A stretch of 35,505 nt of DNA, taken from the IMG/VR virus record IMGVR_UViG_3300035698_016763, positions 1 through 35,505 of that record. One strand, 5' to 3'. A model generated the notes under the pieces. The model did not search any database. It saw only the letters and a program-made list of their open reading frames with translations, and had not been told where the DNA came from. The translations under genes and the position numbers were made by a program. The DNA comes from a virus. Numbering within the stretch: the stretch's first letter is position 1; each line of letters begins with the position of its first letter. Below are positions 12,101-29,351 of this stretch, in pieces.

Positions 12101-12169
12101 AACATCTACAACGTAGATGTTATGCACAACAGTCACTCTGTTGTGCATAACACTACTTACAGTAGTGTT
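12101..12169. promoter_or_regulatory. Chain of three overlapping inverted repeats with two DnaA-box matches
   Basis: Three perfect inverted repeats follow head to tail, each sharing three bases with the next: a 9-bp stem (12101-12109/12113-12121, 3-nt loop), a 14-bp stem GTTATGCACAACAG/CTGTTGTGCATAAC (12119-12132/12138-12151, 5-nt loop), and an 8-bp stem (12149-12156/12162-12169, 5-nt loop). The central arms contain TTATGCACA and its complement, both matching the DnaA box TTATNCACA. The last stem includes the stop codon of the upstream gene. It could be an origin element, an attenuator or an mRNA processing site. Confidence 0.6.
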
Positions 12170-24599: not shown

Positions 24600-25121
24600 C
24601 TACCCTGAGGGTGACGACGACCAGCTGGACGAGATAGATGGTTGCGACGAAGATGAACTGCTGTAAGACGAACTGGAGCTCGAGCTGCCGAGCAACACAT
24701 TGTCCTCTGTCTCAAGGTCATCCATGCGGTTAAGCCCCTCAACAAGGGACTCGACCTCATTCTGAATATCCGTCCAAGCCTGCACGGCGTCGGCCAGGTT
24801 ACGGAAGATAAGGTCAATCGAAGACTCGCGGAAGAAGGCTCGACCCGTCTCGTTTGGTGCGGCGACGGGGTACTCTTCCATATCCGCAGGTGAGGCGACG
24901 TTCGTGAACTCGTCGTAGACATTGGTATCTCCGGCGCCAGCGGAGAACCGCCGGAAGACGAAGATAGATGAACTCATAAGGTGAGCCTCTGTAACTTCCA
25001 CGAGGATACGGTACCCGTGGAGCGCGCCTTGATCCCATCGCGTAGGGCCGCTCTTTTGCAGCCGTATGTAACGGTAAGGCCACTGTGTTGACGATGACGA
25101 TGAGCTTGAAGATGAAGCCAT
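24600..25121 (-). CDS. Ser-rich flanked protein, putative virion component (173 aa)
   Basis: A central ~125-residue domain is flanked by poly-serine runs: nine consecutive serines after MA at the N-terminus and a Ser-rich C-terminal ~30 residues with Tyr, Gln and Pro. The middle contains WPYRYIRLQKSGPTRWDQG and FVFRRFSAGAGDTNVYDEF, possibly a beta-sandwich carbohydrate- or surface-binding fold. Ser-rich linkers are common in phage structural and adhesion proteins, hence the guess. AAAGGAAAC precedes ATG 25121, and a TATAAT promoter lies just upstream. The homopolymer codons (agc/tcg/tca mixtures) invite length variation. Confidence 0.75.
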   Translation of the reverse strand: MASSSSSSSSSTQWPYRYIRLQKSGPTRWDQGALHGYRILVEVTEAHLMSSSIFVFRRFSAGAGDTNVYDEFTNVASPADMEEYPVAAPNETGRAFFRESSIDLIFRNLADAVQAWTDIQNEVESLVEGLNRMDDLETEDNVLLGSSSSSSSYSSSSSSQPSISSSWSSSPSG

Positions 25122-26896: not shown

Positions 26897-27382
26897 TCAA
26901 TCACCAAGATACTCACGCGTATGGCCCTTTATGAATCCAAGCTCCAATGCTGTGTGTGCGAACTGAGCCCACTGATGTTCGTCATACTTGAACCTCGCAG
27001 CGTTCTGAACTATAGATTTGGAGATGTCGCCGTCCTTGTGTCTACGGGTAGCCGCTTTCCAATCACAGATCATCTCTATCAGAGCCAGAAGAGACGCGGA
27101 GCCCATCTCCCAGCCAGGACCATGGTGTTCCGGATGGTGGTCGTTGTGCTTGTAGTGATGGTCGAGCGCGGGCTGCATCTCAGCCAAGCACTGCTTGTAC
27201 TCGTCACTACCGTAGGTCATACCCTTCAGCCTCTTCGTGTACCTCGAGAAGATGGGCCACTCGCTACGGGTGAGCTTCGAGCCATCGTGAACGATCGCCC
27301 GCCTCATCAGGCACAGGCAGGCTCTGAAGATGTACCATGCAACCCAGAGCTTATGTATCCATGTTGCAATATATGCGCTCAT
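26897..27382 (-). CDS. DUF5662-like metal-binding phage protein (161 aa)
   Basis: Recognisable by HDGSKLTRSEW (residues ~32-42) and YKHNDHHPEHHGPGW, then LLALIEMICDWKAATRRHKDG, which match a family of uncharacterised phage proteins (DUF5662). The many His and Asp residues resemble an HD-type metal site, so a phosphohydrolase activity is plausible but unproven. An N-terminal hydrophobic stretch (IHKLWVAWYIFRACLCL) may be an amphipathic helix. ATG 27382 has GAGAAAGG upstream and a palindrome 16 nt away. Confidence 0.8.
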   Translation of the reverse strand: MSAYIATWIHKLWVAWYIFRACLCLMRRAIVHDGSKLTRSEWPIFSRYTKRLKGMTYGSDEYKQCLAEMQPALDHHYKHNDHHPEHHGPGWEMGSASLLALIEMICDWKAATRRHKDGDISKSIVQNAARFKYDEHQWAQFAHTALELGFIKGHTREYLGD

Positions 27383-27398
27383 GCTTACCGCCTTTCTC

Positions 27399-27412
27399 AG
27401 TAACACGTTACT
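27399..27412 (-). promoter_or_regulatory. Palindrome AGTAAC-N2-GTTACT, copy 2
   Basis: The minus strand reads AGTAACGTGTTACT, ending exactly 16 nt before ATG 27382 and directly followed by GAGAAAGG. The first copy is at 24013-24026 with identical spacing. Confidence 0.5.
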
Positions 27413-27432
27413 AATCCAGAAGGGTCAGTGTG

Positions 27433-28185
27433 CTATGCAACAGTACTTTCCAAAATCCGATTGTTCTTTCTAAGATTGCAGCGCGGACAAGAGACAGCTA
27501 CATTTTGTGCCGAGTGCTCACCTTCCTTCGACAATGGAGTTATGTGGTCCATGTGCCATTTATTTTTTGGGACATGTTCACCGCAGATATGACAAACGCC
27601 GTCGTCACGTTCATAGATTGAAGCACGGGTAAAGGAGGGGCCGATGAACGCGCCCCGCTCCCGCGCACGGCGAAGAGCGCGAGCGTTACGGCCTTTCTCG
27701 CGCGATTGCTCAATATTTGCATTATACCTAACTTTATTATATTCACATATACGATCTGGGTTTGCTGCATATCGATCTCTGGCAAGCTCGCGTACCCGCT
27801 CGATATTCGCCGTGCGCCAAACTTTGCCGGATTCGTGCGCTTGTTCGCGATGTGATTCGTAATACGCCTTAGCCTGTTCGCGCATCCGTTCGGAGTTCGC
27901 CTCACGCCAGACTTTATCCTTTTCACGCGCTCGAGCAGGATTTGCCGCACGCCAGGCTTTAGCGCGTTCACGCGCCCGCCCGGGGTTCTTCTTATTCCAA
28001 GCTTCAACGCGTTCACGCGCCCGCCGAGCTTGTTCAGGGTTTGCCTGACGATAAGCTTTAGCGTAAGCCATTTCGCACTTTCGGCACTGGCAACGCCTCC
28101 CATCGCGCGATCTTTTCCTTCGGAAAAACTCTTCCAACGATTTTACTTCACCACATTTTGTACATCGTTTTGTGGGGCTAGTCAT
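27433..28185 (-). CDS. HNH endonuclease with N-terminal zinc finger and 15-aa repeats (250 aa)
   Basis: Free-standing HNH endonuclease of the phage homing type. The N-terminus has CTKCGEVKSLEEFF and CQCRKC, a zinc finger often found with HNH domains. Residues ~45-185 are about eight copies of a 15-residue unit (for example AKAWRAANPARAREK) predicted as a long charged helix. The C-terminus holds the HNH core CHICGEHVPKNKWHMDHI and SCPRCNLRKNN. No RuvC domain is present, so it is not IscB. ATG 28185 has AGGA upstream. Its leader contains two interleaved inverted repeats and a strong promoter. Nearby AT-rich stretches suggest a recent insertion into the glycosyltransferase island. Confidence 0.88.
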   Translation of the reverse strand: MTSPTKRCTKCGEVKSLEEFFRRKRSRDGRRCQCRKCEMAYAKAYRQANPEQARRARERVEAWNKKNPGRARERAKAWRAANPARAREKDKVWREANSERMREQAKAYYESHREQAHESGKVWRTANIERVRELARDRYAANPDRICEYNKVRYNANIEQSREKGRNARALRRARERGAFIGPSFTRASIYERDDGVCHICGEHVPKNKWHMDHITPLSKEGEHSAQNVAVSCPRCNLRKNNRILESTVA

Positions 28186-28206
28186 CTCGTATTCCTGAAG
28201 ATAATT

Positions 28207-28305
28207 CACGAACGTCGCAGCCTGAAATGAGACCTCACTAGGGGTGGGGGCGCAACTGCGACGTTCGTGGGATCAAGTAATGTCATAACATGAAGTCTCA
28301 TTTCA
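28207..28305 (-). ncRNA. Interleaved inverted repeats (pseudoknot-like leader) of the HNH gene
   Basis: Arm A CACGAACGTCGCAG (28207-28220) pairs perfectly with 28256-28269 (14 bp), and arm B TGAAATGAGAC (28223-28233) pairs perfectly with 28295-28305 (11 bp). The order A-B-A'-B' is that of an H-type pseudoknot, with connectors of 2, 22 and 25 nt. The predicted transcript begins at about the B' arm and the structure ends about 21 nt before ATG 28185. It may be a structured leader RNA, a regulatory element or overlapping DNA-binding sites. Confidence 0.6.
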
Positions 28306-28310
28306 CATTC

Positions 28311-28339
28311 AATGTATCATTACAAGATATCTATGTCAA
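28311..28339 (-). promoter_or_regulatory. Sigma70-like promoter of the HNH gene
   Basis: TTGACA (28334-28339), exact 17-bp spacer, TACATT (28311-28316) on the minus strand, just past the stop of the upstream glycosyltransferase. Predicted start of transcription is near 28304. Confidence 0.65.
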
Positions 28340-28346
28340 GGTAAGA

Positions 28347-29351
28347 TTATGGTAAGATCAGCGTCCCGTCGGAATAGTAAGACATGACACATTGAACGAC
28401 AAGTTCAGAACTGATCATCGCCAAGCACTGCGGTATCATAGCGCCGTCGTCCATGAATGGAGCTTTACACTTCTCCCCCTCTTTGTCTGAAACGATCTTG
28501 CTCTTCCAGCAACCACCGACCTTACAGCATTCGAGCTGGCCGCAGGTGTGGATGAATCTGTGGGGCACAAACAGGTTGGGTTCTGGCGCCGTCCATCCCG
28601 TGATGCCACGACGCATGTTGATCTCGCGGTTCTCCTCGGTGTAGGCTTCCCACCACCATGGCTCGCGCCCGCCGCTGACAACGACGCAGGGGCGATTGAA
28701 CGCCGCCGCGATGTGCATGAGACAGGTGACGACGCACATGACGCCGTCAGCGTGATAGATCAGCTTCATCAGGTCACGGAAGCGTGTCTTACCAACAAGA
28801 TCAATCGTGCCCTTCATGCGCGGGTGGTAGTGACCCTTGTCACCAACCTGTACGCACATGATGTGCTGTTTGGCCAACGCGTCGACTACCTTCTGCCAGC
28901 GCGCGGGGTTCCACCACTTGGCCGTGAAGTCATACTTGCCGCCGCTGGCGATCACCCAGTAGCGCTCTTGGAACGGCCGCTCCGCTTTCTCTTCGTCCGT
29001 CAGATGGAGGTCGGGCCGGAACTCGCTGAGTACGGCCCTCTCGTTGCCCGCCCTACCATCAAGGTGCAGCTTCTTGTTCATGTCCTCTATGAAGCCCCAG
29101 AGGAAGTGTACACGCTCCTGGTTGGACTTGTGGACAAGCGGGTAGCCAAGACTGACGACCTCGGGCTTAGGCGTAACGGGCAACGGCTCATGCTCGATGT
29201 AGGGGTTCCCGCGCCAGATGTCCTTCGTGACTGTCTTGATGCCAATCTTGTACCTACCGGGGTGCCTGCGCGCGAGGTCTCGGATCGCTGCAGACATGAC
29301 GATGAAGTCGCCGGGGGACTGTCGATTTATCATAAGTATAGGCTCAGCCAA
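28347..29351 (-). CDS. Heptosyltransferase-like glycosyltransferase, GT9 family (334 aa, TTG start)
   Basis: GT-B glycosyltransferase resembling ADP-heptose:LPS transferases. It opens with ILMINRQSPGDFIVMSAAIRDL, the usual N-terminal GD(f/i) motif, and has YWVIASGGKYDFTAKWW with the Lys/Trp acceptor region and GVMCVVTCLMHIAAAFNRPCVVVSGG, equivalent to the GT9 DTGxxHxAAAL donor-binding loop, though with VT in place of DT/DS. A Cys-rich C-terminal part (CGQLECCKVGGCW) matches bacterial GT9-like proteins with FIHTCGxLxCC. The start is TTG 29351 with AAAGGAG 8 nt upstream. Sugar and acceptor are unknown. Confidence 0.85.
   Translation of the reverse strand: MAEPILMINRQSPGDFIVMSAAIRDLARRHPGRYKIGIKTVTKDIWRGNPYIEHEPLPVTPKPEVVSLGYPLVHKSNQERVHFLWGFIEDMNKKLHLDGRAGNERAVLSEFRPDLHLTDEEKAERPFQERYWVIASGGKYDFTAKWWNPARWQKVVDALAKQHIMCVQVGDKGHYHPRMKGTIDLVGKTRFRDLMKLIYHADGVMCVVTCLMHIAAAFNRPCVVVSGGREPWWWEAYTEENREINMRRGITGWTAPEPNLFVPHRFIHTCGQLECCKVGGCWKSKIVSDKEGEKCKAPFMDDGAMIPQCLAMISSELVVQCVMSYYSDGTLILP

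Follow-up and report, generated by a model that had tools for sequence, protein, structure and literature searches.

The stretch of viral DNA that we analyzed (the window, 35,505 nucleotides) covers part of a tailed phage genome, with genes for a terminase, SbcCD and glycosyltransferases, and several related phages are ~160-211 kb in size. Within it, a gene for an HNH endonuclease is flanked by a GT9 and a DUF5662 gene and is preceded by a leader; read on the minus strand, the order is promoter, arm A, 21 nt, arm B, 18 nt, arm A', GG, arm B', 21 nt and the ATG. The two nearest relatives used for comparison, G001 and G002, have GT9 proteins about 79 and 77% identical to that of the window. The features of the locus are the following:

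27412..28360, minus strand: probable extent of the inserted module (promoter, leader and HNH gene), at the GT9 3' end; ends approximate, placed by comparison with G001 and G002
27433..28185, minus strand: HNH endonuclease open reading frame, 250 aa, with a Cys ribbon, 15-aa repeats and a C-terminal HNH domain
28193..28196, minus strand: Shine-Dalgarno AGGA, within the 21 nt between arm B' and the ATG
28207..28220, minus strand: arm B' (CTGCGACGTTCGTG), 3' arm of stem B
28223..28237, minus strand: arm A' (TGAGGTCTCATTTCA), 3' arm of stem A
28256..28269, minus strand: arm B (CACGAACGTCGCAG), 5' arm of stem B
28291..28305, minus strand: arm A (TGAAATGAGACTTCA), 5' arm of stem A
28311..28316, minus strand: -10 hexamer TACATT with extended TG and a 17-nt spacer; the start is predicted from the spacing
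28334..28339, minus strand: -35 hexamer TTGACA, 6/6 match

The HNH domain is matched by PF01844 (E 1.7e-11) and by phrog_1035 (E 1e-26), and no RuvC, REC or known guide-RNA domain was found in the protein. The NCBIfam IscB model covers the HNH part only, and its score of 33 bits lies below the cut-off, which is 175. HEARO RNA and IscB resemble the present case in that an RNA structure is tied to an HNH-containing gene, but the window protein is only 250 aa long and lacks RuvC, and there is no Rfam HEARO match; we therefore rejected IscB/HEARO, as the initial annotation had done because of the missing RuvC domain. That annotation also knew of no named leader or intron structure of this form, which is consistent with the Rfam search, where no family scored above threshold on the leader and HNH region and no intron was matched; Gut-1 was rejected at E 0.079 and 23 bits against a gathering threshold of 50. 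The GT9 open reading frame is complete upstream, and the HNH gene lies outside any group I or II intron or intein. It is probably a free-standing phage homing endonuclease gene with putative activity. Between the Cys ribbon and the HNH domain (27433-28103) there is a degenerate run of 15-aa (45-nt) repeats, visible in the DNA as a 45-nt tandem similarity. Elsewhere in the window, a 457-aa open reading frame at 13363-14736 matches phrog_1314, 'HNH endonuclease' (E 8e-39), and may be a second HNH-annotated gene.

The initial annotation described two perfect inverted repeats in A-B-A'-B' order, and the arm coordinates on the minus strand confirm this arrangement. Stem B (28207-28220 with 28256-28269) has 14 bp and is perfect, and so is the 11-bp core of stem A (28223-28233 with 28295-28305). 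The lengths given earlier, 14 and 11 bp, are thus correct for perfect pairing, but the shorter pair extends to 15 nt (28223-28237 with 28291-28305) with a single mismatch in the DNA, and this mismatch becomes a U·G wobble in the minus-strand RNA to give a stem of 15 bp. The gap from the end of arm B' to the HNH ATG at 28185 is about 21-22 nt, in line with the 21 nt reported before. The TTGACA-17-TACATT promoter proposed in that annotation is also supported; the usual promoter spacing predicts a start at ~28304, where arm A (the arm formerly called B') has its first base, so that the mRNA would begin directly inside a stem. A search for an intrinsic terminator at the leader found none, as there is no T run, and this candidate was rejected. 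The longest tight hairpin of the window lies at 12118-12152 between two minus-strand genes; its 15-bp inverted repeat is perfect, and 5 nt separate the arms.

The arm arrangement is real and far above chance. An interleaved perfect pair of at least 11 and at least 14 bp was found in 0/300 first-order Markov windows of 35.5 kb, and among 20,000 Markov-generated 180-nt leaders no summed arm length exceeded 19, where the observed sum is 25. The 269 kb of related phage records G001 and G002 contain no interleaved pair with a sum of at least 20 and arms of at least 9 each. Together with a wobble that pairs in RNA and not in DNA and a predicted promoter start that coincides with arm A, these results led us to read the arms as those of an RNA leader.

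Comparison with the relatives indicates how the leader arrived. No HNH gene follows GT9 in G001 or G002, and no match to the HNH protein occurs anywhere in these two records, which may themselves be fragments. The sequence AACGTGTTAC stands directly after the GT9 stop in G002 and after the HNH stop in the window, which argues that promoter, leader and HNH gene came in as one insertion of ~930 bp near the 3' end of GT9. Such an anatomy is that of a free-standing homing endonuclease, with cutting and homing as putative activities. Two further observations concern the surroundings of the insert. A direct repeat, ATCTTACC-ATA-ATCTTACC, lies at the GT9 stop (28340-28362), close to the likely left end of the insertion; and the DUF5662 gene (26897-27406), present in the window and in G001 and missing from the same place in G002, is a presence/absence gene beside the HNH insert.

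No close homolog of the HNH gene or of the leader was found in IMG/VR, GTDB or INPHARED. The best HNH identity in the first IMG/VR search was 34%, a GTDB scan for HNH relatives found none, the best INPHARED match reached at most about 46% identity and covered the HNH domain only, and BLASTN of the 1.1 kb region against INPHARED gave no match. Scanning IMG/VR with the 14-nt arm alone returned 119 stretches, roughly the number expected by chance. The distant HNH relatives are ~25-40% identical, and many of them overlap or abut the upstream gene, often with no intergenic leader. Upstream of 94 distant HNH open reading frames we found one weak (9,9) interleaved pair, against four loci in the downstream controls, and a ribbon-plus-HNH search, in which many of the 45 open reading frames matched across part of the protein only, gave one 9+7 pair, on two identical contigs (chance about 9%). 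Interleaved arms comparable to those of the window are therefore absent in ~139 distant HNH relatives, and the leader is a single instance. The initial annotation had held that HNH homologs lacking the arms would speak against its proposal; such homologs do exist in the formal sense, but all that follows from them is that the leader is no common trait of the HNH family. As a separate observation, a distant Cys-ribbon relative (locus L313, 1798-1978) has a 9-bp stem immediately upstream of its ATG (chance about 9%), with a possible Shine-Dalgarno in the loop that is able to pair with the coding region.

That no homolog keeps the arms would also be expected of a neutral relic, i.e. of inverted repeats that arose through template switching or repair during insertion of the module and have no selected function. 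Perfect arms suit a recent origin as well as they suit selection, and short fragments matching a neighboring gene, described below, could be copied debris. However, a single inverted duplication gives nested and not interleaved arms, so a relic would need two events, and the alignment of the arms with the promoter start and the Shine-Dalgarno would be a coincidence. We regard this origin as rather unlikely.

The pairing potential of the leader was examined with a home-made Dirks-Pierce-like energy model, which is crude and ignores detailed loop entropies. In this rough model the pseudoknot (-39.9 kcal/mol) is preferred to the best nested fold (-34.6), and in 500 dinucleotide shuffles the pseudoknot won in 0/500 and -39.9 kcal/mol was never reached. 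Stem B alone, however, almost equals the pseudoknot in the same model, and the nested minimum free energy of the 141-nt stretch (-41.2 kcal/mol, z -3.3) keeps stem B and drops stem A. When the growing transcript was folded stepwise, stem A appeared earliest, at a length of 84-92 nt (-17.7 kcal/mol), and stem B formed once B' had been made. The leader has the H-type topology, with stems of 15 and 14 bp in A-B-A'-B' order and linkers of 21, 18 and 2 nt. Judged from lengths alone, the 18- and 21-nt linkers make the knot sterically possible, while the 2-nt linker between A' and B' is unusual in H-type knots and counts against it; the A'-GG-B' strand would carry both helices near-coaxially, with the 21-nt linker spanning the stack, an arrangement that may be possible and would be taut unless bent. 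What stands of the pseudoknot in the initial annotation is thus the interleaved topology and an energetic preference in a rough model, but not the fold itself. In all modelled states the AGGA is mostly open (unpaired probability about 0.6-1), and the modelled accessibility of the AUG rises from ~0.3 to ~0.7 once the four arms are occupied. Since the Shine-Dalgarno is mostly unpaired across these states, a hairpin that sequesters the ribosome binding site (RBS), of the I-TevI or mobE type, was rejected; this is not ordinary RBS sequestration.

The leader DNA was also compared with 24 related phage records, and the sole match was a serine-rich gene. The 27 nt around the HNH RBS (28192-28218), composed of GCGACGTTCGTGAA and TTATCTTCAGGAA, match the serine-rich gene of G002 (locus L170, 3051-3160) at two sites 97 nt apart, the first (14 nt) inverted and the second (13 nt) direct. 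The 14-mer is present as well in the window's own serine-rich gene (24895-24908). A Markov control gave the joint 14+13-nt match a frequency of 1 in 20,000; comparable paired matches in real DNA of the same phage set, however, occur at two per 305 kb, and this rate corresponds to ~0.001 for the leader before correction for the search. The match is suggestive only, and too thin as evidence to build on.

It does bear on the idea that the dyads downstream of the promoter are a DNA operator, bound by the HNH protein or a phage regulator, with the RNA structure incidental. I-TevI acts as a repressor of its own promoter by way of a homing-site-like sequence, and the operators of I-TevI, I-TevII and I-TevIII all resemble their homing sites (PMC2988022), a situation which the match of these 14 + 13 adjacent nt to a gene, with the 14-mer also in the phage's own copy, resembles. 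The dyads, moreover, start at the transcript start. Set against this are the rate of such paired matches in real phage DNA, the inversion of one matching piece, which is unlike a known operator, arms that are 35-53 nt apart and interleaved, atypical for a dyad operator, and the wobble in stem A, which favors RNA. A repeated operator motif was rejected, as the B motif (GCGACGTTCGT) recurs exactly only within the coding gene at 24895 and the A motif has no exact copy elsewhere in the phage. We consider an operator improbable, to about the same degree as a relic.

Far less probable is an action of the leader RNA in trans, as antisense to the serine-rich gene or as a guide for it, through pairing of A'-B' with the gene. 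Extended by two nt, arm B' is a perfect antisense match to 14 nt of the serine-rich gene in both the window and G002, and GTCTCATT of A' is antisense to AATGAGAC in the G002 gene, in the correct order; but the joint match is only marginally significant, its 8-mer part is expected by chance, and the HNH protein has none of the RuvC, REC or guide-RNA domains mentioned above. Equally remote is a version aimed at competing phages, in which leader segments that match the target (B'-A' as antisense, and TTATCTTCAGGAA next to it) would guide the HNH enzyme to their serine-rich gene or act on that gene in trans; this, if true, would make a homing endonuclease leader a target mimic or guide.

The explanation we lean toward, with a little more confidence for it than against it, is a cis-acting 5'-terminal pseudoknot or hairpin leader that forms the 5' UTR of the inserted free-standing HNH gene and controls its expression, a role that we infer together with its sign. 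It draws on the pseudoknot energy and the shuffles, the open Shine-Dalgarno, the rise in AUG accessibility and the travel of the leader with the HNH insert. As the RNA emerges, A would pair with A' and B with B' to give a 5'-terminal pseudoknot of 15 + 14 bp or, minimally, the 14-bp B hairpin. The folded structure would reach only as far as the expected ribosome footprint, at its upstream edge, with the Shine-Dalgarno left open. Such a 5'-terminal stem could protect the HNH mRNA, the structure could prevent mispairing between the start region and RNA further upstream, and the leader could possibly be bound by the HNH protein or another factor, leading to autoregulation. The interpretation in the initial annotation is, overall, plausible but unproven.

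Phage homing endonucleases are restrained by leader structures and by self-repression. That structured leaders are established on their mRNAs, and that T4 gene 32 has a leader pseudoknot, supports the cis-acting reading. RBS-sequestering hairpins are known for I-TevI, I-TevII, I-TevIII, segB and mobE (PMC2988022); these genes share with ours a structured leader and an own promoter, but their RBS is hidden and a late start excludes the 5' arm, whereas here both stems would be transcribed and the Shine-Dalgarno is free. In seg43 of Aeromonas phage 25, a very stable hairpin lies immediately upstream of the RBS and leaves it uncovered (PMC2988022). In both cases a very stable RNA structure, predicted in ours, sits immediately upstream of the RBS without covering it, and the gene is that of a free-standing phage homing endonuclease, probably so in ours, although seg43 has a single hairpin and a segD-like (seg-type) enzyme in place of two interleaved stems and an HNH enzyme. 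By analogy, the window leader would work most like the seg43 case plus a second, interleaved stem. The mRNA of T4 gene 32 offers a phage leader pseudoknot (PMC3014915). The T4/T2 pseudoknot, also in a 5' leader upstream of the start codon, is likened to ours by architecture, not sequence, and serves autoregulation by gp32, while any protein ligand of our leader would be putative. Its stems are much shorter than those of the window leader.

On the best reading, the leader belongs with the known structured leaders of phage homing endonuclease genes, as a variant of them. If this is correct, a long-armed pseudoknot running from the first transcribed base with an open RBS would be a different control architecture, and because the gene 32 pseudoknot was described in a 2010 review as possibly the sole viral example in translational autoregulation (PMC3014915), a second kind would be notable.
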